This document shows positions 14,279-50,956 of a DNA stretch of 64,000 bases, piece after piece (within the stretch, counting starts at the first letter, position 1; each line of letters starts with the position of its first letter). The DNA comes from Onthophagus taurus. Lineage: Eukaryota; Arthropoda; Insecta; Coleoptera; Scarabaeidae. The DNA lies in contig NC_091971.1 in the NCBI RefSeq assembly GCF_036711975.1, positions 6,889,501 through 6,953,500 of the forward strand, read 5' to 3'. A program made the position numbers and the translations under genes. The notes beneath the pieces are model-generated. The model did no database searches and was not told the origin of the DNA. It worked only from the letters and a program-made list of their open reading frames with translations.

Positions 14279-15700
14279 TTATGTCCAAGGTAAAAAATTA
14301 GAAAACATAATTGTACCAGTTACAAAATAGAACATACAATAAAGAAAAATCAAATTTTTTGATCGAATATGATCATAATAAGAAGCGCAAAACCAATATA
14401 TACAAGGTGAAGCAGAAAATATAATTCTCGTTGTTACTTGTACGTGAGTACAAAAGACGCAAAACAGCGTTAACAACAAAACGTGTACAACACAAGCGAA
14501 TTTAAGACTTGGCTTAATCTCCATATCGATTAATTTGATCTGATTTAAATCGCGAAATAATCCTAAATGCATCAAAAACGGGTTGTTTAATTTGAAATAT
14601 TTTAAAGAGTTTCTAATCGTTATGTAAACAACGGGCGTGGCAAGTAAAAAGTTTGGGATCTGATTAAATTGGAAATATTTTAAAAACCCTACATTCCAAT
14701 AATGTTTTTGAACGTAAGCGTAAGCCAAAGGAATGTTATCGTTACACCATGATTGTTGGTGAATTGAGAAAGTTCCCGGTAACACAAAATCATTTTGTTT
14801 TGCAAAATCTTTCAAAAAATCTGGGACATTACTCTCGAAAGTCCTACAATAATTTATAAAATCAAACACTTGTATTAAAGCAAATGGCAAGATCATCGCT
14901 GAAATATAAAACATCAAAAACAGCAATGATATAATCACAAAAATATACTTAGCGAATTTAGTATTTTTAAGTCTAAATAAATTTTGCACAACAAGAAACG
15001 CGTAAGAATAAAGAAAAAAACCTAAGTTTAAAACACCATTTGATCTGGCACAAGCGGAAAGAGAAATATAAAAAATACATTTTAAACTTGACGAATTAAC
15101 ATAGGTGAAACGTATCCTAGAGTACATTCGAACGTATCTCAAACAACATTGTATCGATTTAAAAGTTAAATAAGCGTATAAACATTCTGAATACGGAGCG
15201 GAAAAGAAAATAGATGCCGGGTTAAAGCAAAACACCATAATGGCAGTGTAAACTATTTTGGGGTTCTCGAAAAATGCGGTTATCTCAAACAGTATTAATG
15301 CAGTCTTTACAAAAATAATTGTGTTAAATACAACAGATGTTAACAATAACATAGAGGATAAATTCATAAAGTTATACACATATAATAAACTTATAGAAAT
15401 ATAACGTAGTATTAAAGGATACAATGGGAAAAAAGCTGTGGTGTTCTCGAAAGTATATCCATACTTGGCGATGTGTAAAAAATATTGAGCATCCCATCTT
15501 GCAAATCCTCCAAAAAGGTGGTGAATCACCCTATCGATTGTAGTGAATGTTTCTTCGCTTGGTGATACGAAAACGTTTGCATCATGGTCAGTTATTAATA
15601 AATTTGCCATGTATTGTAAAAGTATTACAAGCACTCTACTTAGTATTGCATATTTTACTATTCTATATTGAATGTTTTTCTTTACTTCGACAGATTTCAT
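14279..15700 (-). CDS. PIGV: PIG-V, GPI mannosyltransferase 2
   Basis: A single-exon gene of 473 residues, similar to human PIG-V (493). In GPI-anchor synthesis PIG-V adds the second mannose in the ER lumen. The signature loop after the first membrane segment is FARWDAQYFLHIAKYGY, with FFPLYPL just after; the RWD aspartate is the expected catalytic region. FNPASIFFSAPYSECLYA and CARSNGVL are further family blocks. Many hydrophobic segments fit a multi-pass ER enzyme. The C-terminus ends in PWT, and there is very little 3' space before the LINE fragment. It is divergent to QNG1 with about 690 bp between starts. Confidence 0.9.
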   Translation of the reverse strand: MKSVEVKKNIQYRIVKYAILSRVLVILLQYMANLLITDHDANVFVSPSEETFTTIDRVIHHLFGGFARWDAQYFLHIAKYGYTFENTTAFFPLYPLILRYISISLLYVYNFMNLSSMLLLTSVVFNTIIFVKTALILFEITAFFENPKIVYTAIMVFCFNPASIFFSAPYSECLYAYLTFKSIQCCLRYVRMYSRIRFTYVNSSSLKCIFYISLSACARSNGVLNLGFFLYSYAFLVVQNLFRLKNTKFAKYIFVIISLLFLMFYISAMILPFALIQVFDFINYCRTFESNVPDFLKDFAKQNDFVLPGTFSIHQQSWCNDNIPLAYAYVQKHYWNVGFLKYFQFNQIPNFLLATPVVYITIRNSLKYFKLNNPFLMHLGLFRDLNQIKLIDMEIKPSLKFACVVHVLLLTLFCVFCTHVQVTTRIIFSASPCIYWFCASYYDHIRSKNLIFLYCMFYFVTGTIMFSNFLPWT

Positions 15701-16391
15701 GGTTTTCTCTACAAGATGATTATTAAATAAATTCTTTTTATACCATGCGGGTATTTACCTTCCTTAAGGTCTTGCATATAAACAATCAATGCGAAAGTGA
15801 GGTTATAATTGCAAACGATAAGTTTTATTTCTGTACTTGAAACTTGGTGATATGATAAATAATCGTTTGTTGTTGCCAAGTTATTTTTGGATGTTTTATG
15901 AGAAAGAAATGGAATATTTTTAACTTGAATAGTTAGAAAATTTAAAATTTTTGTTACATTTTGACATAACGTGGAGATGACACTTCACCTGTCATTTTAA
16001 GTGTCATGTTTTCGTTAATTTTTAAACCAAAAAATTAAGTTATTAATTAAAAATACTCCCAAATTTTATTCTACAAAATAATAATAATGTGCTGAATCAT
16101 TTATACACAAATTTAAATTATTTAAAATTTATATAAGCTTTTTGACTTTGACGTTTTAACCGTCATTATCTATATATTTTTTCTTAATTATTATTATCTT
16201 ATCCTTAAAATAATTTTTAAATAAAATCACCAATAAAAATAAATATCAATTTACTTAAATAAAACAACCTAAACATGTTTAAACTCGTTTTATTTAAAAT
16301 TTTATTTCGCAATACTACATAACCTCAAGATAATCTTAACCTATAAAAACCGACGCCGACATTTACACATGCCAGAGATTAAGTTGCAAAA
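15701..16391. promoter_or_regulatory. Divergent PIGV / QNG1 promoter region
   Basis: The region holds several TGTCA/TGACA words (TTTTGACATAACG, GATGACACTTCACCTGTCA, AGTGTCATG, TTTGACTTTGACG). Most of it (about 15748-16230) is copied again at 17515-17975 downstream of QNG1. No TATA box is evident. Confidence 0.55.
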
Positions 16392-17445
16392 ATGCCGTTA
16401 AATCCGCGAGATTCAGGAAAATTAATATCTTCATTAGCCAAACACGTTAAAATTAATGAACTTGGAGTTCAAAAACTCGGAGATGAGGTTAGTTTTATTT
16501 TAAATTCAACTCAATTTTATTTCTTAATCATAATTTTAGCTATTAAAAAGTATAAATTCGGGTGAATTATCCATTGAAAGCTTCAGTCAAAATGATGTTC
16601 ACCCAAAATACACAAATTGGTGGGCTATCGATTGGTTATTTGTTGTGGATGCCTTAAATTATTGTTTTTGGTCGAAAGAACACGAATCAGGATGGACCGT
16701 GGAAGGAAAAACGGGATATTTCGCTCTCTGCGTTGCTATAAACAGAGCTATGCGAGAGAATGTCGATATTTTAAATGCAAAATATTATTCGGTGATTTCA
16801 AGGGATGATCTTAAAGAAATATTACGAAGTGATAATGAAGTTGATGTTCCTCTTTTGGATGATCGTGTAAAGTGTTTACATGAAGCTGGGTCTGTATTGT
16901 TAGAAAAATTTGATGGTTCGTTTATTAATTGTGTTAAAAAGGCTGAAAATAGCGCGGTGAAGTTGTTGGATATAATAATTAGTAACTTTAAATGTTTCCG
17001 TGATGAAGCTTCTTATAAAGGACATGAAGTTTCTTTATATAAGAGAGCACAAATTTTGATTGGTGACATTTGGGCTTGCCATCGAGGAGAAGGATTGGGT
17101 AAATTTAAAGACATTGAAGAAATAACCATGTTTGCGGATTACAGAGTGCCGCAATCTTTGTTATATTACAACGTTATTGAATATAGTAATGAATTGAACG
17201 ATTTGTTGAAAAAGAATAATTATTTGGAAAATGGAAATGAGATGGAAGTTGAGATACGGGGAGTTTCAATTCATGCTGTTGAGTTATTGAGAGAATATAT
17301 TACTAAAAAACTTGGGAAAGATGATTCCAAGAAAGTTAATTCGATTATAATTGATCACTTTTTGTGGGATTTTAGGCGAAAACATGCGAAAGAAATTTTA
17401 AAAATAGGGTTACCTTTTCATAAAACGTTTTGTATTTATTATTGA
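16392..17445 (+). CDS. QNG1: QNG1, queuosine 5'-phosphate N-glycosylase (DUF2419)
   Basis: Two exons (16392-16487, 16540-17445) give 333 residues, near the human C9orf64/QNG1 length of 341. The family frees queuine from queuosine 5'-phosphate so that it can be reused for tRNA modification. Hallmarks are DWLFVVDALNYCFWS (about 60-74, with the conserved Asp and the N-[YF]-C-F-W block), GKTGYFALCVAINRA, LLDDRVKCLHEAG, FRDEASYKGHEVSLYKRAQI and FADYRVPQSL. The last block, DHFLWDFRR, is also conserved. The start MPLNPRDSG follows directly on a short 5' leader. Its 3' end was copied into the downstream remnant at about 17996-18092. Confidence 0.92.
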
Positions 17446-17514
17446 TTAAAAAATTATTAAACTCAACTTTTTATTTTTTTAATATTGCATTAACTTACTA
17501 TCTATTGTTATTAT

Positions 17515-18095
17515 ACTAAGCGGATATTTACCTTCCTTAACGTGTTGCGTATAAACAATCAATGTGAAAGTGAGGTTATAATTGAAGAGGATAAGTCTTA
17601 TTTCTGTACTTGAAACTTGGTGATATGATAAATAATCGTTTGTTGTTGCCGAGTTATTTTTGGATGTTTTATGAGAAAGAAATGGAATATTTTTAACTTG
17701 AATAGTTTGAAAATTAATAATTTTTGTTACTTTTTGACATAACGTGGGGATGACACTTCACCTGTCATTTTAAGTGTCATGTTTTCATTAATTTTTAAAC
17801 CAAAAAATGAACTTATCAATTAAAAATACTCCCAAATTTTATTCTAAAACATAATAAACATGTGCTGAATCATTTATACACAAATTAAATTATTTAAAAT
17901 TTATATAAGCTTTTTTTGACTTTGACGTTTTAACTGTCATTATCTATGTATTTTTTCTTAATTATAATTAATTTTTTTAATAAAATCATGGATATTAGGC
18001 GAAAACATGCGAAGGAAATTACGTTTTGTATTTATTATTGATTAAAAAATTATTAAACTCAACTTTTTATTTTTTTTATTATTGCATTAACAATC
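17515..18095 (+). pseudogene. Remnant of a tandem second QNG1 locus (promoter plus 3' end)
   Basis: 17515-17975 repeats the PIGV/QNG1 intergenic DNA of about 15748-16230 with scattered changes (for example both read CTTGAAACTTGGTGATATG). Then 17996-18092 repeats the last codons and 3' flank of QNG1 (TTAGGCGAAAACATGCGAA, then TATTTATTATTGATT), with a small internal loss. Nearly the whole coding region of the second copy, about 1.1 kb, is missing. This indicates a tandem duplication of a unit of about 1.75 kb followed by an internal deletion. Confidence 0.85.
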
Positions 18096-18473: not shown

Positions 18474-20119
18474 TTACGCATCCCAAGCGTCATCGTTTGA
18501 GCTCGAATCTGTATCAGACCCGTCAGAATCTATCACCGGTCTTCGACCTTCCAAAGCTCTCTTTAAAGCACCCGCCAAATCCAAACACTCATTATTTGGA
18601 GTCGGTGGTTTAATTTCTCTTTCCTCAACAGGTTTTAATTGAACCCCCTTTTTAATTTCTTTAAATATATCATCTCTATCTCCACCGCCGCTACTCGGTT
18701 TTTGTTCCACCATTTCAACCGGCTACAAAATAAATCACAACAATAAATTTTTATTCAAAAATAGGATATGATACTTACTTTTAATGTTACTTTATTACGA
18801 ATACTTTCCAATAAAGCCGATCTTGGATCATCAGTGGTTGTTAGATTCGATGGTTGTTGTATATCCGAGTTGAAATCACCTGGTGGGGGTAACGGGGGTG
18901 GAGGTGGCGCGATATCGTTTAAAGGAGGAAGTGGAGGTGGTGCTGGTGGGGCGTTTTCTGGTGGAGGAGGAGGAATTGTACCTAAAATATTATTAAAAAA
19001 AGATTAATAAGAAAAAAATAATTCTTTTTATTACCTCCTCTTGGTTGATATTGAGGTCGTGGGGGTGGTTGTCCTGATGATGTTGGGGGAGGAGGAGCAA
19101 TTCGCTAAAATGAAACAAAATAAACTATTATTGTAATAATTATAATTAATTAACTTACAGTGTGAGGAGCTTTGGGTGCTACTCTTGGTGGTACCGGAGG
19201 AACGGGTGTTCCTGGGGTAGATTTAGGAGCTGGATATTCTTTCTTTTCGATTACTTTCTCAACTGCATCTCGACCACCATGTTTTTCAATAAAATCGTAA
19301 ATAAACTCTCTCGTAGCTTCGTCTTTTAAATGCTTTTCCGATACGCCAGCCTATTAAATCATAAATTATAACAATAAATAATTGAAAATAATTAAATTTA
19401 CCTTTTTAAAGAATTGTTGTAATGTTTGATCACTAGTATTTACATCAAAACCTTTATCTTTGTCCCAACCAATATGCGAAACATGTCTAAATTCTTTAGG
19501 AACTCCAATGTCGGCTTTGGTGAGATTACGTTTCCGTTTAGTTTTGTCTTTTCTTTCATTCCCAGTGTTTTTAAAGGCATCATTAGTAAAGATGGGTGCC
19601 GCCGGTTTTAAATCTCTATTATTTCCTTCTCCGGAATTTCGAGCTTCACGACGTTTTTTACTCTGTATTTTCTCTGTTACAACACTTAACATATCGGTAG
19701 CTTCGTTTTCGCAAACAAAATTGAATCCATAAACGCTCTTCTATATCAAAAGATTTAAAAAGATATAAAATTTGTATTAAAAAACTTACCTCTCCTTCAA
19801 AAGCATGTAAATAACTGCACAGTCTTATATATTCCATACCATTATATAATTCTTGTTCCCAAACCATAGTTTTTTGGTATAAATCGTATAAACGAAAAAA
19901 ATAATTTCTCTTTGTGTTATCTCTTACGAAGCATAAAACCCCCGCATTTTTCTTTACCCACCGGTCGTGAGATGGGGGGTGAGTTGTGTAAAGTTGAACT
20001 ACGGCTGTAGCGATAGTTTTACAACGAAGACCTAACATTCGAAAAATTTCATGATTTTCCTCGTGGTTGAGGATTTGTGAACTCTTGTTCTCGATGGATT
20101 TTTTATCTTGGGGCTGCAT
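18474..20119 (-). CDS. WASp: WASp, Arp2/3-activating Wiskott-Aldrich syndrome protein
   Basis: Six exons (19790-20119, 19402-19740, 19159-19350, 19035-19104, 18779-18981, 18474-18722) give 460 residues. Order: WH1/EVH1 (about 20-130, with VVQLYTTHPPSHDRWVKK and KRNYFFRLYDL), a basic patch (KRKRN), and a CRIB/GTPase-binding domain (IGVPKEFRHVSHIGWD, then FFKKAGVSEKHLKDEATREF). Next come a proline region with PPPPP runs, two WH2 motifs (ALLESIRNKVTLK and DIFKEIKKGVQLK), the connector (LAGALKRALEGRR) and the acidic tail ending DDAWDA with the required Trp. Active Cdc42/Rac releases the VCA end to drive branched actin. The gene is intact in every part. It heads a same-strand row of three WASp-derived genes. 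Confidence 0.95.
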
Positions 20120-20560
20120 GTTTAACCGGTCGATGGTGAGTGAGTTAATACGGTTAACCTATGGGTTTATTCCTATCTTATCACAAAGTTTTAAATAGCT
20201 TAAAATGGTATTGCTGCGGAGGAATAACCCGAGGCCAAATTACGAAGTTATTTAGTCATATCTGACAGATAACTGTCAGGTGCAGAAAAAGGATGGGGTA
20301 CGTTCTAAAATACTCATGTTTTATAACATAGGAATTTTTATGGTTTAAGCTATTATGAAATGGTGATAACTTTTTTAGTATTAACTTTTATTGATTCGAT
20401 TAATTTATACAATTAAAATAAAAAATTAAATAAAATAATTATGGAGGTTAAAAAATTTTTTTGTAGAACGTTTTCAATTAACTGTCAAAACAACTATTTA
20501 GTAGTTGATTATTAAAGCGTTTAGTTGATGATTTAAAGTTTATTTAAATAAAATTTCTTG

Positions 20561-21687
20561 TTAATCCCAATTATCGCTATCACTATCGGATGAATCATCG
20601 CATATATTACGATGTCTGTTAATAATAGCGTGTGTTAAAAATTCCTTGTCTTCGTCGACTTTTAATGTCTGACAGAAATTGGAAAAGTTTTTCTCCTCAT
20701 TTCTTATCTGTAACAAAAATAAGATGTAAATAAAAATTAAAGTGAAAATAAAAAAAAGCATTTACTTGTTTATTATCAATTTTTGAATTTAACTGGGCCA
20801 TAAAATTAAATTGCGGTTCTTCCTTAGGTTTGGGTGTGGATATGTTAATTTCTACTTCATCTTCAAAATAATTAAATTGCGATTCTTCTTTAGGTTTGGT
20901 TGTGGATATATTAGTTTCTACTTCATCTTCAAAAGTCACTTTTCTTGGTGAAATAACTTTAGATTCATCACCATTTGATGTTTCATTTTTCCCACTTAAT
21001 TTTAATATTTTCGTATCCAATTCTCTCCAATCACTAAACCCATAATGTTGGACGTGTTTGAATTCCACTGGGTTACTTATGATGAATCTGTGATTTTTTC
21101 GAAAAGATTTTTTTGTAGTGTCTTGCCTTTTTATTTTTTTTATGGTACCCGTTTGTTTTGGGATTTTAATTTTTTTAACGATTTCTTGAACGCTTTGGAA
21201 GAATGAAGAAGCCTCGATTTCATCAGTAAAAGATAAGCCATAAGCGCAGCCCTTAAAAATGACATATACATAGTTATGGTGTATCTATTTTTTTTTAGAA
21301 AGTACCTCTCCGATAAATGTGTGTAAAAACTTAGCACTTAATACGTATGAGAATGCGGGTGGAATTTTATATTCCCATATTAACGTGCAACTATCAAAAC
21401 AATATAATCTAAAGAAATACGTTTTTAGGTTATAATCTTTAATCAGACACACAATTCCTGTATGGTGCTTAATCCATTCATCATGTTTTGGATGTTCCGT
21501 TTGGAATAATTGGACGATTGCGGTGGATTTGGACTATAAACAAATTAATAATTTATATTTACTTTATCTTGATCTTATATTAAATATTTACTTCACACCC
21601 GTATCCGAGTAGCTCGAAAATTTTTAAATTTTCATCTCTACTTAATAACAATGATTCTACGTTTTTGAGTTTCTTTAATTTCTTCAT
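20561..21687 (-). CDS. Divergent WASp paralogue: WH1-CRIB-acidic tail, no proline region
   Basis: Four exons (21592-21687, 21306-21533, 20766-21251, 20561-20707) give 318 residues. WH1 is present but diverged (TAIVQLFQTEHPKHDEW, TYFFRLYCFDS, LSAKFLHTFIGE). A CRIB motif follows, ISNPVEFKHVQHYG, with Tyr for the usual Val. In place of the proline region are two near-copies of EDEVEINISTPKPKEE. Then comes a weak WH2-like NFMAQLNSKI, a connector-like LTHAIINRHRNI and an acidic end DDSSDSDSDNWD that keeps the Arp2/3-binding Trp. The intron after the WH1 IGE matches WASp (EGE) in position and phase. WASp has no intron at the position after GYGCE. The role is inferred: a regulated Arp2/3 ligand without SH3 or profilin docking. 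Confidence 0.85.
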
Positions 21688-21868
21688 TTTGTTGTTGCTA
21701 AATGAATACTGGGTTGATGAATGATATAGTGTAGGATTTTATCTGTATCTTTATTTAAATAAATGATTAAACAATTTGTTTTTATTGCGATAGCAAAATT
21801 TTCCTGTTAATGTTTCAAAATCAACAAAATTAAACACTACATGTTCTCAGTAAGATTTATTAATGTTT

Positions 21869-22396
21869 TCATGGTAGTCCGTCAGGAGGAAGCGGTGCCA
21901 ATCTCTAAGGAAAATGTATTTATATACAATAAGTTATTCCTCCTTTCTTAATTATTAATTACTTACTTTCTTGATTTTAGTAGCTTTTAATGGCATTCGT
22001 GGAGGTATTGGAGGTATTTCAGTTTCATGTATAGCTTTAGGTTCTTCATTTTCAATTATTCTTTCCACAGCATTTCTTGCATCATGATTATTAATAAAAT
22101 TGTTAATAAATTCTCCTACTTTACCACCAAAACTGTCATTTTTGTTTCGACTGATATGTGAAACATGTTTAAAGTCTTTGGGGACACCAATATCAAATTT
22201 GGTAAGTTTTGGATACTTAAATAGATGAATACAAATGAATAATTAAAGAAATTATTAGTTAATAACAAACCTTTTTGGAAGCTACATGATTACTCGTTTT
22301 GTGATCAATTTCAAAATGCGATACATTTCTAAATTCTCTGGGAACCCCAATATCAGCTTTGTTAAAACAGTGTACTTTTTTACCTAGCGATGTCAT
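21869..22396 (-). CDS. Small WASp-derived protein with two CRIB motifs
   Basis: Three exons (22271-22396, 21967-22215, 21869-21904) give 136 residues from the ATG at 22394-22396. The first CRIB-like motif IGVPREFRNVSHFEI has Asn for the first core His. The second, IGVPKDFKHVSHISRN, keeps both His. A shortened GBD tail (GEFINNFINNHDARNAVERI) follows, then IPPIPPRMP, and the protein stops shortly after RLAPLPPDGLP. The junction before RLAP matches the WASp exon border before RIAPPPP, so the gene is a cut-down WASp lacking WH1, WH2 and the acidic tail. It could bind Cdc42/Rac but has no visible output domain. Expression is not shown by the sequence. Confidence 0.75.
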
Positions 22397-23051
22397 TGCA
22401 ATATGCTGAAAACTACAAACTTACTGTTTCGATTTATGTATGAAATTTGTAAAACTGACAATAAAACAACGAATATCTTATCGAATATTTATATATTATG
22501 TGTATTGCTGTTATAAATAAAAGTGAAGTGGAGATTTAAATTGTTGAAATTTTTGGAACTATTAAAAATATTTCGATTAGATAGAATTTATTGTGTTTTT
22601 ATCCATTACATCAAGCGATTGAGGGAATCTCTCATTAACATCTCAGATTTTATGATTAAAGAATTCGTTTGGATCGAGATTTGATGTCGCGACATTGCAG
22701 GTATTTTTGAAAGAGTTCAAATGAAAGTATTGTTTTTATTGCCAAACAGTTTCATTTCCGAGTTCCACACAATTTTTGACTAAAAAAAAAGGTTTTCTGG
22801 TATCATTTGAGTTATTAATGCTTGTGCTATTGGTGTTATTATTATTTGTGGATAAAATGTAGAATAAATAAAGTATATACAAAAATGTGTTTTATTCAGC
22901 AATAAATAACAATTGAGTTAATCACCATAATTAAAAACAAATTGGAGAAAATCTTACTAATTAATAAAAAGTATACATTTATATATAATATTTATGTCTT
23001 TTCATCTTCTTTGAAGTATATAATAAAAATTTTAGCTAACTTTACTTGAAA

Positions 23052-24586
23052 TTAATAAGAAAATGGTAATGGAATATGCGATCTATATGAAGCTAATAAA
23101 AGATCGTTGTATTCTTGTTGTGATCTTCTTTCTAAAAAGGAAAAAGTTCCTCTTTATACATTTAATAAAGAGGTATAAATTTAGTTATTAATTTTCTTAC
23201 CAACTTCATCTTGCAAATTTTTAGCTAAACTCGTATATGTACTAGGAATCGGTTTTGTCTAAAATAACGTTTTAAATTGTACGCAATAAAATAATTGTTG
23301 GTCATATTTTTGTACCTGGTGGTTTCTGTCATCATCTACTTTAGAGTATTGCCTGATAAAATCGAAAATAAACTCTCTAGTTTCTTGGTCATTTAAGTGT
23401 TCTTCTGTTACACCAGCCTAAAATTAAAAAGTAGTTAAGACTAAATTAAAACAAAAATTTTTTATTTACCTTTTTAAAGAAATTTTGAAGTACAACGTCA
23501 TGTATCGGTTTTTCTTTATTATAACTTACATGAGCGTTATGTCTGAAATGTTGTGGATTCTCAATGTCTGTTTTTTTAAATTTACGCGGTGCTGGTATTG
23601 GTTTTTTAAGGTTTCTTAACGGCGGATTAACAGTTACATTTGATGGTTCATCATCCATTATATCTAATATAAAATTTTGTATTTCTTTATCTTTCCTGTC
23701 AATATTTTTTTGGCAAGATTTCTCGATGGCTTCTTCAATATTTAACGAACTATTCAAATCAACATGCGCGAGGTGTTGAAAATTTTCCGGAAGCCCAATA
23801 TCCTCCTTAGTTATCACCTTCTTTTGTGAATTTTCCACTTCATTTTCTTTATTTTTCATTTTAGTATTTTGTAAGATCTCGGCGAGGTTCCGCCTCGAAT
23901 CAATGTTTTGTTGTTTTTCGGACGTACCAGCTTTATCCAAGGCGATTCGCATCGTTTTGTCTTCAGTTTCCATTCTTAATTGATTATTTTCTAATCCGAT
24001 GTGGGCTAAATGTCTAAAGGCTGTTGGTTCTGAAATATCATCTCTACTTAAATTTTCTTTTGGGGCAAAATCAAATTCGGAATTTGACGAATTTCTTCCT
24101 GGAAAATCAGACATTTCTTCGAGTTGTCTGCTCACCTGGTGATAATCAACGTGGGCAATGTGAAGGAAATTTGCTGGGTAACTTATATCTTTTTTCGTTA
24201 ACGATCTTGTTATAGCTATTCTTGGTAATTTTAACGGCTTTAAATTGTTGGAATCGACCCCTGAGAAATAATGTTGGATGTTATCGATTATGTTTTGATC
24301 AACGTTTTGGATCGAAGAAAATTGTCGTTTTTCTTCTAATAAAAACTAAAATTTTATTTTTTATTTCTTATCGAAAGAAAATAAAATAAAAATTTACTTC
24401 TTTAGAATCCTGTCGTGGGATGTGTCGGAATTCTTTTGGTCCGTTATCGCTTAAATCTTTTCGTAACGTTTTTTGGCGTTTGGGTATTGCTGGAGGTTCT
24501 TCCAAAATTGGATATTCTACAAAGAAGTTAAAAAAAATTATGTATTAATACTTAATTGTAATGTTACCTGCTAATAGCTCGTCCAG
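23052..24586 (-). CDS. WASp-derived protein with five CRIB-like motifs in series; 5' end unresolved
   Basis: Exons 24398-24516, 23470-24345, 23316-23417, 23201-23258 and 23052-23131 join in phase. A 19-nt piece at 24568-24586 may precede them, but no in-frame start was found. Motifs in order: a degenerate LSDNGPKEFRHIPR (about 24420-24460), ISYPANFLHIAHVD (24148-24190), ISEPTAFRHLAHIG (23995-24040), IGLPENFQHLAHVD (23758-23803) and IENPQHFRHNAHVS (23529-23570). Four keep the core P-x-x-F-x-H-x-x-H. The last runs into FFKK, an exon border, and AGVTEEHLNDQETREF, exactly as in WASp. The protein ends RSHIPLPFSY with no proline run, WH2 or acidic tail, and no WH1 was found upstream. It looks like a multivalent Rho-GTPase binder; the role is inferred. 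Confidence 0.8.
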
Positions 24587-24659
24587 CTACTATTTTATAA
24601 TACTTAGATATGCTTAAAAATTTCAACATTTTTTTTTATAATTACTCATTAATTAACTA

Positions 24660-25110
24660 TAATTAATTTATTATCAAATCGAAAAGAATTTAATTGAAAT
24701 AATTTAAATATATTCAAATGTGACTAATTTATGTTTAATTATAATTACTATTAGTAACTCTCGGTCTCATTTCAACCAAATAAGTAAGGTTATGTACCTT
24801 CTAATTGAACTGTCAAAATAAAAGTCAAGCAGATCTAACCTCAACTCAATAATGTTTACGTTTTAATGGTATTAAAACTTATTAACAGTGTAATTAATTT
24901 ATTATCAAATCGAAAAGAATTTAATTTAAATAATTTAAAATATATTCAAATGTGAATTTATCTTTAATTAGTTATTCTCTGTGTCTTTCCACCAAATAAG
25001 TAAGGTTATGTATCTTCTAATTGAACTGTCAAAATAAAAGATAAGCAGATCTAACCTCAAACGAACAATTTTTACGTTTGTTAAACCTCATTAACAATGC
25101 AAGTAACATT
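24660..25110. repeat. Tandem duplication (~230 bp x 2) upstream of the five-CRIB gene
   Basis: 24660-24889 and 24890-25110 share TTATCAAATCGAAAAGAA, TAAGTAAGGTTATGT, TTCTAATTGAACTGTCAA and AAGCAGATCTAACCTCAA in the same order. Each copy contains an AACTGTCAAAAT word like those at other gene starts in the window. It probably includes the promoter of the five-CRIB gene, in two copies. Confidence 0.75.
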
Positions 25111-25290
25111 ACAATATAATTAGCAAAATAGAAAAACTGTGTCCAAATATACATGTAATAAACACAATCTTACTGAAAAAAATCTGAGTCTTAAATTATA
25201 ATCGGAGGTAAATCCGTGAGATTGTTATTATGTTCTCTAATCAACAACTGTTTTATCTTTCTTTTGTAGTGAAGAACCCCCTTTTTTATA

Positions 25291-25681
25291 CTCTGTTTTT
25301 AAACCAGTAGGAGTATTTTAAATTTGTCACCAGATTGACCTTGCATGTGATTGGTTGAATGCGAGGAAGGTTCACACACAGGCAATTTTGAATTTGAAGG
25401 TTAGGTAATTGATAATTCGACAGTTTCGTGTCATTATTGTATATTTTGTGTTCTTAAACCCTTTTTTATTATATTTTGAAATAAATACACTCATAACTTC
25501 AATGTTAATTTGTATGTATAGTGTTGACGATAACAAACGAAAATAAATACAATAATAAGTAAATAAATAAATAATAATTATTAATTTAAATTTACCGCCA
25601 AAATATCTAGTGATATTTTCTGGTGATTTTTCCAGTGTAAATCTGACTTTCGCGTTTACTCCTCCTGGTTTAAAAACAGAG
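25291..25681. mobile_element. MITE copy 1, TIR ~27 bp, TA target
   Basis: The left end CTCTGTTTTTAAACCAG is matched in reverse by CTGGTTTAAAAACAGAG at the right end. TA stands on both outer sides (TATA on the right). There is no coding capacity. The interior includes CCAGATTGACCTTGCATG and AGTGATATTTTCTGGTGA. A second copy is at 26338-26707. Confidence 0.85.
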
Positions 25682-25685
25682 TATA

Positions 25686-25780
25686 GTTCTAGTGCAAGTG
25701 TTAGTTCTAGTTTTAATTGTTATTCAGCGCTAAGTTGTATATTTTTAAGTTTCGGGTTTAGCCCTGTGTCTTCAGACGCT
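25686..25780. repeat. Single degraded hairpin-repeat unit
   Basis: Contains TAGTGCAAGTGTTAGTTC and TTTCGGGTTTAGCC, then the beginning of the returning arm. It is the same family as the array at 9480-10135 and sits directly between MITE copy 1 and the 122-bp array. Confidence 0.7.
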
Positions 25781-25782
25781 GA

Positions 25783-26337
25783 ATGTTAGGTAAGGTTAGT
25801 TTTGTTTACAAACATTAATTATACCATGAAGTATTCTTTGGCAATTAGTAATGGCAATTATAGCGTGAAGTTTTCTTTTGTAATGTCAATTATAGCGGGA
25901 AGGAATGTGAGGTAAGGTTAGTTTTGTTTACAAACATTAATTATACCATGAAGTATTCTTTGGCAATTAGTAATGGCAATTATAGCGTGAAGTTTTCTTT
26001 TGTAATGTCAATTATAGCGTAAAGGAATGTGAGGTAAGGTTAGTTTTGTTTACAAACATTAATTATACCATGAAGTTTTCTTTGGCAATTAGTAATGGCA
26101 ATTATAGCGTGAAGTTTTCTTTTATAATGTCAATTATAGCGTGAAGGAATGTGAGGTAAGGTTAGTTTTGTTTACAAACATTAATTATACCATGAAGTTT
26201 TCTTTGGCAATTAGTAATGGCAATTATAGCGTGAAGTTTTCTTTTGTAATGTCAATTATAGCGTGAAGGAATGTTAGGTAAGGTTAGTTTTGTTTACAAA
26301 CATTAATTATACCTTGAAGTTTTCTTTGGCAATTATA
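25783..26337. repeat. Tandem array, 122-bp unit, ~4.5 copies
   Basis: Unit starts recur at 25791, 25913, 26035, 26157 and 26279, always GGTAAGGTTAGTTTTG followed by TTTACAAACATTAATT. Units differ at only a few bases. Each unit also has an internal half-repeat (GGCAATTATAGCGTGAAG and GTCAATTATAGCGTGAAG). The array stops exactly where MITE copy 2 begins. Confidence 0.95.
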
Positions 26338-26707
26338 CTTGTTTTTAAACCAGGAGGAGTATTTTAAATTTGTCACCAGATTGACCTTGCACGTGATTGG
26401 TTGAATGCGAGGAAGGTTCACACACAGGCAATTTTGAATTTGAAGGTTAGGTTATTGACAATTCAACAGTTTCGTGTCATTATTGTAAATTTTTTTTATT
26501 ATATTTTGAAATAAATACACTCATGACTTCAATGTTAACTTGTATGTTTAGTGTTGACGATAACAAACGAAAATAAATACAATAATAAGTAAATAATAAT
26601 AATTATTAATTTAAATTTACCGCCAAAATATCTAGTGATATTTTCTGGTGATTTTTCCTAGTGTAAATCTGACTTTCGCGTTTACTCCTCCGGGTTTAAA
26701 AACAGAG
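26338..26707. mobile_element. MITE copy 2
   Basis: Same element and orientation as 25291-25681, about 20 bp shorter because of a small internal loss. The ends are CTTGTTTTTAAACCAGG and GGGTTTAAAAACAGAG, flanked by TATA on both sides. It lies in the end of the 122-bp array, so it probably inserted into an array unit. Confidence 0.85.
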
Positions 26708-28129
26708 TATAGTAGTATATACATGCTTGAATTTTAGCGTTTTGAAAGGAAAAAAATGTACAATGAGTATTTTTATTCATAATGAATACATTTTAATCAA
26801 TGACCCTTAATTTTTAATTGTATTCTATTTTTATGCATGACAACTATGCTCTCCATCTGATAAGATAATCTTTTTGAATATTGTTAATAAGATAAAACGT
26901 GGGGTCGGTGTAGATCAAATGAGATTACTTCTTTTAAGGAAATAGATATGTTTTGAAAATGTCAGTGCAAAAACGTTTGTAAAAATTAATTTTGATTGAT
27001 TACGAATTTAACATATAGTAGCCCTTTATTCGAATCAATTTTATTTTATTATTAACTATTATTACTGATAAAGCTATAATAAGTCAATTTAAATCGTAAT
27101 TATAAGATTTAGATTGATTTAAGAATTAGATTTAATATCTTACCGTTGCTGTTTGGTATTTCCCTCATTTAGTAATTAAAACTGTTTGATTTTTCAAAGC
27201 ACAAGAATTAAGAATGTACTCGTAGTTGAAATAATTATATATAAATCTTGTTGAAATCGCTTGGAACAATGTCGACTGTCTACTGATTAAAAATGTACAA
27301 TAAATTTGTAATTATTCGTTATCTAATCAGGTGAATCACATTATTTTAAGTATAACGTCAATTTAACGTTAATTTATTGGCAAATTTCCAAAAAATTCTT
27401 TTATTTAATTTAATTAGGTTCTATTCAAGTTGATTTATTTAAATTAATGATTTGTTTCAAAATAATGAAAATAGGTAAATGTTGCCCTGGATTTAGAAAT
27501 AATTATCTTATCAGATCTAGTGAAAGATTTAATGCTTTAGCGTAAATTCCAGAAAAAATATGTACATTTGAGTTGTATTAAAGAATTTATTTACACAAAA
27601 ATAAATCGATCGGTCCTCGAACTAGAGTTTATAACAAAAATAATAAGAACACATCATTTCACCTATTAATACTTATAAATAAGGAATATATTTTATAAAC
27701 AATAATTCTGGGGACCAAAAGAATAAACCAAAAGATTGCATCTTTTCTATAGATAAGGAGAAAAAAGGGCGCTTGCGGCTGAACCGTTGCATGATTAATA
27801 GATAATCGGCTGCAAGCGAACCCTAAATGATTAACAAATAATACAGCGCATTTGCTAAAATGTATAAAGGTGAATGTATGACTGCGCTTAAAAGAATCAA
27901 CCAAAAGATGCAAGAACACAGTTTGATAATAAAGTAAATGGCACCGTTTGTATAATAAAGTTCCCCATAACTTTTGTAAATAATCTTCGTGACTTAACAT
28001 CTATTTTAATGGTATATGGATCGGCAAGACGTTAATAAATTAAAAAAAAAAACTAATCACAATCGAGTTAAATTAAATTAATTTATAAATTAAACGATTT
28101 TCTCTTCATTTTTCGTTTCGTTGTGAATT
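26708..28129. other. Intergenic, nothing recognised
   Basis: AT-rich DNA between the MITE and the cuticular gene. No ORF with domain content, no RNA gene and no clear repeat was seen. GCGCTTGCGGCTGAAC and CGGCTGCAAGCGAACC at about 27770-27825 form a weak imperfect palindrome. Confidence 0.5.
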
Positions 28130-29530
28130 CTAATAAGGTCTCGGATCGTAAGGTGTCGCATGTAATCCCACGTATCTGTTGTTCTTTCGATGTTGAAAAC
28201 CGCCTTCGGGCGAAGCGTTGTAATAAATTACCCTTCGAATACCAAACGGATCGACGTAACCGAAACTTCCACTTTTTTGATTTCCCGGTAACTGTTGTTC
28301 TTCGTGATAAGCCCTCGGTATGTAATATCTATAAATAAAAGTATTAATAAGGAAACATTTTTAATGTGATTGTTATTTTTGTCCGAATTAATTAACGTCT
28401 TAATTGCTGTCGTTTATGTTGCCATAAACGGACTCAAAATTGCTTTTTTATTGTATTTATAACCGACGGCAAATCCTAGACGAAAAATATAATCTTCTAA
28501 TTAAATAAATATTTTTTTTTACCTGAATCCATCGTTAGTGACAGAAACCCCATCGTATTCAGGATATTGCGGATCATAACCATTTCCTATTTTATTATTT
28601 TGACCGTTAAATGTGTGTCCGTGTGTATCAATCGGATAAGTTGGTCCATTATGATTAATATAGGGATTTGAATAATGTTCGTATTGTGGATTAGAACTAT
28701 ATACAATGTTTGGTGCTGGGGTTGTTGAAACTTCTTGATTTAAAGAAGGGGTTGAGCTTAAAATTGGGATTGGAGTTGATGTGTAATGAATGGAATTTTG
28801 ATCGTTATAAATATCGTTTGAAGTAATCGGTGGTGAAATCGTCGTTGAAACTCCAGCCGGAAGTTCGTAAGGATAAGAATTCGGGCGAATATCAACGTTA
28901 GATACGCTATTTGGATAACTTGGAATATAAGAATTTGACGGTCTTTGTGTTGTGCTTGAAGGTGCATTTGAAGTACTTGAATATCCTAATTTGCTTGTTT
29001 CCACCAAAACTCCATTTTCCGCGGGAGCTTTTTTAGCTGCTTTTATAGCTTGTTCAATCGGCGTGTGGAAACCAACTTGAACGTTTTTAGTTCTTAATAT
29101 TCTGTATCCTTCATTATCCGCGATGTAATCTCTTTGTCTTAAAAATCCGTCAGCATCTATCCAAGCGTATGTACCTATAACGGTTCCATCCTCCAATCTC
29201 TTTTCTTTTCTATATTGGCCACTTTGTGTTTGATATCGAAAGTATCTCTCGGGACCTTCATCAGTTTGTATGTGGTATTGCCCTAATGGATCTGTCCATT
29301 CTGCTTTGATACATTCTAAAAGAATCGTCTGCAAAAAAAATTAATAGTATCAATATATTTAATCTTAATTTTGTAGAAGAAAGTTAGTATAATTAGTAAA
29401 AGTTTTTTAAGTCATAAAGAAAAAGAGAGTTTTCTCATTCATATTTAATGAAATAAGTTATATAATGATAGAAAGTGACGAAAAAATCGATTTTTGATTT
29501 CTAATAAGTCTTTTATACCTGACTCAACAT
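28130..29530 (-). CDS. RR-type cuticular protein, 338 residues
   Basis: Three exons (29519-29530, 28523-29328, 28130-28328) make 338 codons plus stop. The first coding exon has only four codons (MLSQ), a layout usual for insect cuticular genes. The signal peptide continues as TILLECIKA, which is a weak one. The chitin-binding RR-like domain is near the N-terminus: YFRYQTQSGQYRKEK, GTVIGTYAWIDADGF, DYIADNEGYRI. A Ser/Thr/Pro/Asn/Tyr-rich middle follows. A second, shorter RR-like half is at the end (GSFGYVDPFGIRRVIYY) with a closing GLHATPYDPRPY. It is likely secreted into the cuticle. It shares the early-RR plus late-RR plan with the gene at 37440-39897. Confidence 0.85.
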
Positions 29531-37439: not shown

Positions 37440-39897
37440 TCATTTCAACGGATACCACACAAATTCGAAACTCTGCAAACCAAAACTTTTTTCCGTTTCT
37501 TCCTTCGGGGTTAAAATCGAATCATACCCTAAATTGATTAACCTCACTTTCGGTCGATACCCAAATTCATCAGCAACATAAGTCACAATCCTACTAATTC
37601 CATCACGTCCATTCACAAAATATCCCCCGACTTTAGTACCATTTCTCCACCCCATTTCGTAATGCCCATGGAACCCTATAGTATAATTAAACTTATATAA
37701 CAAATCGGAGATATCCCCAGTAGATATTCCATCAGGAAGCCCGTCTTTCATCCCAGGGTATTTATCCTCAATCGGAATCGGCGGATTATTAGGTACCAAT
37801 ATAGAATTATTTTCTATTTTTATATCATCTACAATACTGTGGGGTTCTGATTGAGGTTGAGTGGTTTGAAGATTTGGCGAAATAGGGTTTTGAGTGTTTT
37901 GATTCATGATTCCGTGAGAAAGGATTTCTGATGGGGTATTTTTTGTTGGAGTTATTTGAATTGAACCACTTTCGGTTGTTAGTCCTAAAATATTTTTATT
38001 GCCTTTGTAACCAGAGTTTTGACCTGGTTGGGTTTGTGTATTAGGATAATTTATATTTTGTGGTACATTTTGATTGTTAGGTTTTTGGAGATTTATTGAT
38101 TGACCATCATTAACTTGAGATATCGGACTTTGACCTTGAGTTATTCCAGAAGGATAATTTTGATTTGTTGTTCCTTGAACTCCTTGGGTATTAAAAGTTT
38201 GTGATGTTTGAACTTGACCTTGACTTAGTCCAACAGAAGAATAATTTTGATTTGTTGCCCCTTGAACTCCTTGGACATTTAGAGTTTGCGATGTTTGAAC
38301 TTGACCTTGATTTATACCAGCGGTAGGATAATTTTGATTTGTTGCTCCTTGAACTCCTTGAGGATTTAGAGTTTGTGGTGTTTGAACTTGACCTTGATTT
38401 ATTCCACCGGGAAGAGAAGTTTGTGGAACATTCTGATTTGATGGTCCTTGAATATTAAATTGTGGGCCATTTACAGCTTGAGGTGTTTGACCTTGTTGGG
38501 TTACTCCACTTGATGGGTGAAATCCTAAAGAACCTTGATTTTGCGATGTTTGCGGTGCATTTTGAACGATAGGTTTTTGACCACTAAATGGCGCTGAACC
38601 TAAACTACCTGTATTTTGGATATTTGGTGCATTTTGATCAATTCCACCTTGAGTTGATGAGAGTAATCCTTGAGTTTGATATATTTGATTACCTTGATTA
38701 GTTCCTCCAGATGGATAATTAAGATTTTGTGGCACATTTTGATTTGGACCAACATTAATACCTCCACTTGGTACATTGACACTTTTTGGTGTAGTCGATG
38801 AACTTTTCGTGACATAACCACACCCAGCACAAGCTGGTTTAATAGTTGCTTGGGTTGTAAACATAATTGGTTGCTTACTACTCTGAATATTTGGATTAAC
38901 AAGTTCTGGACGTTTAGTTACCGCACCTAAATTAGCAATTTGTACATTTTGAACTTGCGTTACTTTAGGAATTGAGGTAGTTGAAGTAAAAACTTCTTTT
39001 TGATTCTTATTAATATTTGCTGGAGATGATGTGCTAAAAGATTCCCCAATCGGAAGCGGCTTTGTGGTGTAAGATCCAGCTTGAGACCCATCAAGAGCTA
39101 AAAAAAAATATTTAGTCATTCCAATAATAATTAATTATTAATTCTTACGCCCGCTAATCCTAACATTTCTCATACTCAAAATTTTGAATCGACCATTTTC
39201 ATCGGTGGCGTACACCGTTACGTGATAAATTCCATCGGCGGTTATAAACCCGAATTCTCCTTGGATGATTCCGTTTGCATCTTAAAAATTTGTTTTAATT
39301 ATTATTTATTAATATATTGATTTAAAAGAGTACCTCTTCTTTCATGGCGATGTTGTTGCCCATCGATGGAAGATCCAAACTCATAGGGTCGATTTTCATC
39401 GTTGACTTTGCTATCTTCTTTGCAAAAGACGACGTATGAGCAAAACAACCATAAACTCTATTACCCACATAAAAATGACAAAAATAAAATAAGTGATATT
39501 ATAATTAATTTAATACGCTGTAAAAAACATTTATTGTTTTCCGTCCTTGCATAATAAATAATAGCTTTCACTTTTACCATTGAGGGTCTTCGTGAGCACC
39601 AAGGATTTTAATCAGTTACTATAAATAAGTACAATAATTCGTCTCGCACTCACGCATCAACTATTAATTATTAAAATATAATTTTCTTTGGGGTTCAAGT
39701 CATTGCTTGAAGTGATATTCTGATATCATCTTATGCATTAAAATGCTGGCTAATAAATTCTTGAATATAAACTCAAATTAGCAATTGAAAAAAGTTATTT
39801 TTGGATTTCAAGGTTTTTTCAAATTGAATTTGATGAATAAAATAATTTTTTTTTAATTAAATTATTTACTTACCAAGAATTTAATTTTTGTAAACAT
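37440..39897 (-). CDS. RR-type cuticular protein with two RR domains and a long Gln/Asn/Pro repeat linker
   Basis: Four exons (39874-39897, 39334-39457, 39149-39280, 37440-39097) make 645 codons plus stop. The signal peptide is strong ([20 protein letters not shown]), split by the first intron after eight codons. The first RR-like domain is [19 protein letters not shown] ... [19 protein letters not shown]. About 400 residues of Gln/Asn/Gly/Pro/Ser-rich sequence follow, including repeated [11 protein letters not shown] and [10 protein letters not shown] units near 38150-38400. A second RR-like domain closes the protein: [32 protein letters not shown]. It is probably a secreted, chitin-binding, extensible cuticle protein. 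The repeat block is likely to vary in length between individuals. Confidence 0.88.
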
Positions 39898-49424: not shown

Positions 49425-50956
49425 TACCGATTGGTAACTTTAATTTTAGGAGATACACCCAACATGGACGTACGTATAAGTATACTTGTGTGTGTGCATA
49501 TGCGCGCGGAGTATGTTTGTGGGAGGGGAATCGCAAGAGTAGTGGATCGGAGAGCAGTCAGTCGTTTGACATCGTTCAATGATAAGAAATATTATAAAAA
49601 TAATAACTAATATAATAAATGAAATTCAAATAAGACAAAGCAAATTCTTAATTCTAAAAATAAAAACAATTCGTAAGTAACTGAAATAAACTTTGTAAAA
49701 CAACAAATAAAACAAAAAACTATAAAAATAAAATATTTTTTATATTAGGTGTTCAAATAAACCACCATTCTGTGCTAAACAATAGCCCAATCTATCGTAA
49801 AAAGTTTGCCTTACATTCGCTAGTATATCGGGACTAATATCCTGTATACAATTGCGAATTCCTGTTTGTAAGTCATCCAGATTGGTTGTCCTTTCTTCAT
49901 CAAAACCATAAATTTTCGATTTTAAATATCCCCATAGAAAAAAATCATTGGGGGCTAAATCTGGTGATCTAGGCGGCCAAGTTAACGTTCCGCAAATAGA
50001 TATTACACGATTTGGAAATTGTGCGTTAAGATACTCTTTAACTTGCCGGTGGGAATCTAATTGTTGAAGCGATGGGATTACGTCATTTTGCAAAATGTTT
50101 AAATACTTATGACCATTTAAATTTCCTTCTATGAAAAAAGGACCGATAATATGGTCACCTACTAAGCCAGCCCAAACATTTAATTTTTGGGGATATTGTG
50201 TACGAGCCGCATAAACTTTGTGTTCATTGTCACGACTCCAATATCGAGCAACGCTGGGATTATGCCGACCATGCAAAGGAAATGTAGATTCATCGGTAAA
50301 TAAAATGTTTTTTATAAAATCAACATTTCCGTTGGCCATTTCCATCATAGTAAAGCAAAATTCCGCCCTTGTAATATTATCGTTCTCACAGAGTTCCTGA
50401 CTTTTTTGTACCTTGTACGACCTGTACCCGTGTTTCTTTAATGTTTTTAGGACGGCAACATGGCTGATAGCAAACGTCTCCGCAACTTGTCTGCTTGACT
50501 GATTTTTATTGCGTTCAACATCAGCACATATCATCGTATCACGTAACTCATCTCTTTTACCCCTTCGTAATTTGTGTTTCTGTGGAGACACACATCCATG
50601 TCGCTCAAAGTTTTTAATAATATTTGAAATTGTTCCGCGATTAGGAATTGATCTGTTTTCATAGGCCACAGGAATCAAATTAATTATTTGGGCTACAGAA
50701 TTGCCACCATAAAACCATTTTATAATCTGTACCTTTTCCGCTACAGTAAACAACATCTTAGTTTTTTTTTGCTAAGGTTAACTGCAAAGCGATGCGACCA
50801 ACTTCGCCTCTCAACAATCTATGAACGATTCAATTTGTGCATTACCCCTACGCTTGTTTATCCCCCACTTAACGACACCGAATATACACACACACGTATA
50901 CTTATACGTACGTCCGTGTTGGGTGTATCTCCTAAAATTAAAGTTACCAATCGGTA
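49425..50956 (-). mobile_element. Tc1/mariner-superfamily element, ~1.53 kb, TA target
   Basis: Terminal inverted repeats of about 70 bp start TACCGATTGGTAACTTTA and continue through GGAGATACACCCAAC to a TGTGTGTG run. Both copies are nearly identical. TA target duplications stand at 49423-49424 and 50957-50958. One long transposase ORF lies on the minus strand. The near-identity of the ends and the open frame suggest a recent insertion. Confidence 0.95.
49740..50756 (-). CDS. Tc1/mariner-superfamily transposase, lacking the second catalytic Asp region
   Basis: 338 residues. The N-terminal helix-turn-helix (AEKVQIIKWFYGGNSVAQI) is of the DUF4817 type, and a second HTH follows (SSRQVAETFAISHVAVLKTL). 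The first catalytic Asp is in ILFTDESTF. The third is in WPPRSPDLAPNDFFLWG. Where relatives have W-F-Q-Q-D-G-A-P-P-H with the second Asp, this protein runs from NDVIPSLQQLD directly to SHRQVKEYL. About 15 residues seem to be missing in frame, so the enzyme is probably dead despite its open frame. Confidence 0.88.
   Translation of the reverse strand: MLFTVAEKVQIIKWFYGGNSVAQIINLIPVAYENRSIPNRGTISNIIKNFERHGCVSPQKHKLRRGKRDELRDTMICADVERNKNQSSRQVAETFAISHVAVLKTLKKHGYRSYKVQKSQELCENDNITRAEFCFTMMEMANGNVDFIKNILFTDESTFPLHGRHNPSVARYWSRDNEHKVYAARTQYPQKLNVWAGLVGDHIIGPFFIEGNLNGHKYLNILQNDVIPSLQQLDSHRQVKEYLNAQFPNRVISICGTLTWPPRSPDLAPNDFFLWGYLKSKIYGFDEERTTNLDDLQTGIRNCIQDISPDILANVRQTFYDRLGYCLAQNGGLFEHLI

Follow-up and report, generated by a model that had tools for sequence, protein, structure and literature searches.

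The question raised by this locus is what becomes of a WASp gene that has been copied in place. WASp is a controller of actin growth, in which a GTPase sensor and an actin nucleator are held in one gated chain. In a 64,000-nt stretch of the Onthophagus taurus genome (contig NC_091971.1, positions 6,889,501 to 6,953,500; hereafter the window), a complete WASp gene (G1) was observed together with three WASp-derived genes (G2, G3 and G4), all on the minus strand and in one orientation. On the evidence of the sequence, local duplication of WASp with loss and multiplication of segments has left four genes with open, constrained frames. As to function, our tentative reading, which may well be wrong, is that the copies would have divided the work of WASp: G2 as an ungated WH1-CRIB-CA protein, and G3 and G4 as non-nucleating, multivalent binders of GTP-loaded Cdc42 or Rac.

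A WASp gene and three derived genes

The four gene models are as follows, in their 5' to 3' order (G4, G3, G2, WASp).

24586(?)-23052, minus strand: G4, multi-CRIB gene, 417 aa, 6 exons (24586-24568, doubtful; 24516-24398; 24345-23470; 23417-23316; 23258-23201; 23131-23052)
22396-21869, minus strand: G3, two-CRIB gene, 136 aa, 3 exons (22396-22271; 22215-21967; 21904-21869)
21687-20561, minus strand: G2, WH1-CRIB gene with a probable CA tail, 318 aa, 4 exons (21687-21592; 21533-21306; 21251-20766; 20707-20561)
20119-18474, minus strand: G1, WASp, 460 aa, 6 exons (20119-19790; 19740-19402; 19350-19159; 19104-19035; 18981-18779; 18722-18474)

The models were assembled manually, by inspection of open frames and splice sites, and verified afterwards by script. 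All 15 modelled introns are GT-AG, with lengths of 49-69 nt and a G+C of 16 %, compared with 19-29 % at third codon positions of the coding sequence. Because the introns were picked as GT-AG, this agreement is a matter of consistency and no independent test.

G1 contains WH1, a basic-CRIB region, WAID, polyproline, two WH2, a C region and an acidic tail ending in DAWDA, which is the WASP-family feature set of WH1, basic region, CRIB, WAID, polyproline and VCA (features according to PMC3298513). WH1 (5.9e-30), PBD (1.9e-10) and WH2 (two stretches) were matched by Pfam, for which matches up to E 1 were recorded here and below; the WAID, polyproline and acidic tail were read directly in the sequence. 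The copies are related to WASp by BLASTP (E-values of 8.7e-34 for G1-G2, 3.4e-20 for G1-G3 and 6.6e-17 for G1-G4). Three exon borders, at EGE/IGE, at FFKK before AGV and before RIAP/RLAP, are common to WASp and the copies, each in phase 0. A further candidate border is seen in the first WH2 (TLK before P in G1, NKQ before I in G2, both phase 0). An earlier note on this DNA had described a complete WASp gene with three same-orientation genes built from its segments, the three named borders, and local descent with exon loss or gain. The gene models, Pfam matches, BLASTP values and shared phase-0 borders confirm this description in substance. The same note placed the copies downstream of WASp; this is incorrect, as the minus-strand location puts G2-G4 upstream (5') of it.

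No fifth gene or further WASp-derived segment was found when all four proteins were searched against the 64-kb window by tblastn. The best matches outside the cluster were proline-rich stretches (E 0.001 to 0.12; 4.5-7.6 kb), and the others had E-values of at least 0.17. WH1 within the window was confined to G1 and G2.

Two other readings of the layout were weighed. An assembly artefact, for which nothing was seen in its favour, deserves almost no weight, since misassembly would yield near-identical copies: amino-acid identity between the copies is 32-53 % over aligned segments, and the closest nucleotide match is 65 nt at 82 % identity. It is also very unlikely that exons of G4, G3 or G2 are alternative parts of one WASp transcription unit. 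The genes are closely packed on one strand, with 441, 181 and 655 bp between them, and the G4 model has no start codon, which would suit such a unit; however, each gene has its own stop codon, and a separate ATG is present in each of G1, G2 and G3. An AATAAA follows each stop within 156 nt, although AATAAA is common in such AT-rich sequence.

Coding constraint was then considered. Nonsynonymous (dN) and synonymous (dS) substitutions per site were 0.32 and 1.15 for G1-G3 (91 codons) and 0.39 and 1.20 for G1-G4 (67 codons), which puts dN/dS against WASp near 0.3 for the pairs that could be measured. For all four genes the modelled frame had the highest coding log-odds per codon. Taken exon by exon, the same was true of 12 of 13 in G2-G4, and not of the first exon of G4, which is 19 nt long and doubtful. 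When neutral decay without indels was simulated (2000 runs per gene), 0.1 substitutions per site left no run free of stops for G2 or G4 and 233 of 2000 for G3, a short gene; at 0.3 substitutions per site the numbers were 0, 0 and 7. In addition, the six frames of the window hold eight matches to a core CRIB pattern, seven in the cluster and one at 49868 (plus strand), whereas 40 simulated first-order Markov sequences, each 64 kb long, gave 0.175 matches on average. The excess of the pattern, the log-odds and the simulation agree with the earlier view that these are coding genes and not chance frames.

These results bear on whether the copies are pseudogenes, that is, WASp segments drifting without function and open by chance. 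The lack of a convincing start exon at the 5' end of G4, the shortness of G3 with its 233 open runs, and two damaged CRIBs would fit such drift. We consider it improbable, given that dS exceeds 1 for both G3 and the G4 segment, the few or no open runs at 0.3 substitutions per site, and hot-spot residues that are preserved despite synonymous change (see below).

CRIB motifs and WAID remnants of G3 and G4

In human WASP, alanine substitution at five hot-spot residues of the CRIB cuts Cdc42 affinity by about 77- to more than 2000-fold (PMC6166713 Table 2). These residues (I238, P241, F244, H246 and H249, human WASP numbering) are all kept in seven of the nine CRIBs of the cluster. The first CRIB of G3 (G3a) retains four of the five, with N at H246, and the first of G4 (G4a) retains three, with L at I238 and R at H249. 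When eight of the nine copies were compared codon by codon (G4a was omitted for its insertion), the amino acid differed in 7 of 140 pairwise comparisons at the hot-spot positions, all from one G3a residue, and 72 were synonymous; at other CRIB positions it differed in 226 of 280. As synonymous changes have accumulated there, the hot-spot residues appear to be old and held rather than merely recently copied.

The CRIB counts of 1, 1, 2 and 5 in the earlier note therefore stand only if the two damaged copies are included, with seven of nine intact and three to five in G4. They are an upper bound, because Pfam PBD finds four in G4, is sub-threshold in G3 and finds none in G2.

WAID sequence was sought in nine segments by comparison with the autoinhibitory and proline segment of WASp (4000 shuffles). 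WAID-like sequence was detected in G4 between c and d (4 of 4000 shuffles), between d and e (6) and after e (0), and in G3 after b (0). Its presence after c, d and e of G4 indicates that at least part of this gene consists of complete GTPase-binding units, repeated. One WAID-like exon is the following.

23316..23417, minus strand: G4 exon with the translation AGVTEEHLNDQETREFIFDFI, a homologue of the WAID exon of WASp (19350-19159)

The two exons share a gapless stretch of 65 nt with 82 % identity, and none of 4000 shuffles aligned as well. G4 thus carries the WASP-family CRIB and WAID features, with CRIBs a (damaged), b, c, d and e, a Pfam PBD match in four stretches (4.6e-17) and WAID-like sequence after the last three. 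G3 shows the same two features: its CRIB b has five and its CRIB a four of the five hot spots, and the second half of the WAID is present (0 of 4000 shuffles), as is a PPIPPR motif, a PxxPxR that sits where WASp has its own. Its Pfam PBD match (0.0083) is under the gathering score. No Pfam match to WH1 or WH2 was obtained for G3, nor for G4 as modelled, which also has no long polyproline. By Pfam, tblastn and reading of the sequence, neither gene as modelled has a WH1, a VCA or a long polyproline, with the caveat that the G4 model is provisional at its 5' end.

Just upstream of G4, at 24650-25080, a noncoding sequence occurs twice side by side (94 nt at 90 % and 49 nt at 98 % likeness; spacing 216-231 bp). 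An element of about 1.4 kb lies 0.7 kb 5' of G4 at 25294-26713. It contains a 122-bp tandem repeat (4.5 copies at 25781-26335), is flanked by two direct repeats of about 400 bp with 95-100 % likeness over parts of their length, and is possibly a non-autonomous mobile element.

Several CRIB units per chain in G4, and less so in G3, would allow avid binding of GTP-loaded Cdc42 or Rac. The arrays would then either concentrate active GTPase at the membrane or keep it from WASp. The WAID pieces kept beside the CRIBs suggest that G3 and G4 might also touch the C region of WASp, a contact that may be made in trans. One could go further and regard both as pure antagonists, sponges in solution that would reduce the free Cdc42/Rac-GTP and block WASp, in the manner of small CRIB-only proteins (SPECs) or of a GBD fragment acting in trans. 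Their content of CRIBs and WAID pieces, with no WH1 or WH2 match, is in accord with this, yet we regard it as unlikely. Against it, an engineered tandem WASP CRIB raised, and did not deplete, membrane Cdc42 in reconstitution, where a single CRIB gave no enrichment and full-length N-WASP likewise enriched Cdc42 through its lipid-binding stretch (PMC12048676). A more specific proposal is that G4 would be a natural Cdc42/Rac-GTP trap made of tandem CRIB and WAID-remnant units which, with G2 and G3, sets the threshold and place of WASp activation; this is possible, though doubtful.

G2 and the proposed division of functions

G2 consists of WH1, a basic stretch, one CRIB (ISNPVEFKHVQHYG) with all five hot-spot residues, a degenerate WH2-like stretch and a probable CA tail with a DNWD end. 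Its WH1 is well supported (Pfam 8.2e-25; human WAS chain 9s9x, E 2.7e-28) and matches the WIP-N-WASP fusion chains 2ifs_A (2.6e-17) and 1mke_A (6.1e-17), which suggests that G2 could dock on WIP. The tail, LTHAIINRHRNI...DSDSDNWD, is a probable C-acidic region, and only 17 of 5000 shuffles align as well as the G2 last exon does with the last exon of WASp. No WAID was detected (3100 of 4000 shuffles score equally well), the protein has no polyproline region, and Pfam gave no WH2 match. One repeat is present within the coding region.

20804..20934, minus strand: 66-bp tandem duplication in G2 exon 3, in frame, two copies with 92 % matches

As the probable CA tail is kept and WAID and polyproline are not detected, G2 was taken as a candidate ungated WASp and not as a GTPase trap. 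It would dock on WIP via WH1 and, if the tail is real, on Arp2/3 via CA, without gating. With its WH2 degenerate and polyproline absent, G2 would be poor at actin delivery, and a role as brake or tether is likelier than one as activator. The division of functions would follow a local duplication of WASp with later loss and multiplication of segments in the copies. The earlier note saw the whole family as remodelled from actin nucleation towards GTPase capture; for the family as a whole this is not supported, since G2 keeps WH1, one CRIB and a probable CA tail with no WAID detected, and G3 and G4 retain WAID pieces beside their CRIBs.

Several observations weigh against the division of functions. 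In cells, sensors gained only partly from more CRIBs per chain, and direct tandem WASp CRIBs were pre-localised at the plasma membrane (PMC10234108). The CRIB copies were found via the motif, which biases the set towards intact residues, and V250, G251 and W252, which make weaker contacts, are often altered in G3 and G4, so that single-site affinity there is probably under that of WASp. No WAID was found in five of the nine segments, namely three in G4 (before a, 286 of 4000 shuffles; a to b, 725; b to c, 2595), one in G3 (a to b, 774) and the G2 segment given above. In G2, the CRIB escapes Pfam PBD at E up to 1, the C region alone is matched by 8406 of 20000 shuffles, the WH2-like stretch is marginal (554 of 20000), and phmmer with the last exon did not find a WASP chain. 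Synonymous sites between G1 and G2 are saturated, which leaves G2 with no dN/dS, and the pairwise values for G3 and G4 include the WASp branch, so that constraint on the copies alone is weaker, only moderate. A 176-aa segment of WASp, not of G2-G4, had no relative in prokaryote and virus contigs, a result uninformative on insects.

The 5' end of G4 belongs here as well. A search of 24520-28500 for an ATG exon gave seven first-exon candidates with a donor score above 3, and none of them was convincing. The acceptor score of the proposed first exon is 3.7; the other 15 acceptors, which served to train the score, lie at 5.9-12.8. The first in-frame Met lies in exon 3, and a start there leaves three CRIBs; with the start codon not found, G4 is to be read as having three to five.

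If the division of functions is true, evolution would have dismantled the gated WASp chain in situ, with the sensor kept and multiplied and the nucleator dropped in G3 and G4, and with one copy, G2, left without its gate and probably with its tail. A natural CRIB array would also let the idea of Cdc42 concentration be tested in an animal.

Known systems and neighbouring sequences

WHAMY of Drosophila, described by Brinkmann in 2016, reportedly has two CRIBs that bind Rac1. It is a wasp-derived duplicate that is unable to activate Arp2/3 (PMC8834112; PMC5095904), and with its proline-rich region it nucleates filaments independently of Arp2/3 (PMC5095904). As Kollmar 2012 places invertebrate WHAMY in the WHAMM family (PMC3298513), the sources differ. 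The likeness to the cluster, a wasp duplicate without Arp2/3 activation, could suggest that the copies are WHAMY-type actin polymerases that drive filament elongation without Arp2/3. There is little probability in this, however: WHAMY is proline-rich, whereas G2, G3 and G4 have no Pfam WH2 match or long polyproline tract.

Species-specific duplications of WASP are numerous in Kollmar 2012 (PMC3298513), which also describes short WASPs in which CA or VCA is missing. Among them, fish S-WASP is without the basic, central and acidic parts, and basidiomycete short WASPs are without polyproline and VCA (PMC3298513). Like the cluster genes, these are WASP duplicates with domain loss. They are grouped by WH1 and CRIB/WAID, whereas G3 and G4 have no WH1 and have multiplied CRIBs; G2 differs from them in that CA is probably kept and WAID is not detected. 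The cluster is thus one with precedents, in Drosophila whamy (PMC8834112) and in the fish and basidiomycete short WASPs (PMC3298513), which were overlooked when the earlier note stated that it knew of no such cluster having been described. In the literature, the matches listed (titles and abstract starts, with subscription journals thinly covered) included neither an insect WASp cluster nor a natural protein in which CRIBs number more than two. If the division of functions holds, wasp duplication, as whamy in flies and short WASPs elsewhere, would be a recurring route to new Rho effectors.

Engineered 2xwCRIB and Cdc42 location sensors resemble G4 in carrying several WASP CRIBs in one chain; they are man-made dimers of one CRIB, whereas G4 would be a natural array of diverged units. 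SPEC resembles G3 in small size and in the absence of catalytic parts. G3 and G4 differ from it in WASp descent, several CRIBs and WAID pieces. SPEC (CDC42SE) is named among the non-kinase CRIB effectors (PMC8847673).

The surroundings of the cluster contain the following features.

14279-17445, beside WASp: PIG-V mannosyltransferase (minus strand) and queuosine salvage protein (plus strand)
15709-15984 and 17479-17757, minus strand: similar frames (91 and 92 aa), one on each side of the queuosine salvage gene, apparently a repeat that was duplicated
28519-29340 and 37440-39134, minus strand: two frames with Chitin_bind_4 (insect cuticle protein), a sign of an arthropod and probably of an insect; the second has a long Q/N/G-rich stretch
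49740-50771: open 343-aa frame like a Tc1/mariner transposase (Pfam DUF4817; Tc3 helix-turn-helix below cut-off)

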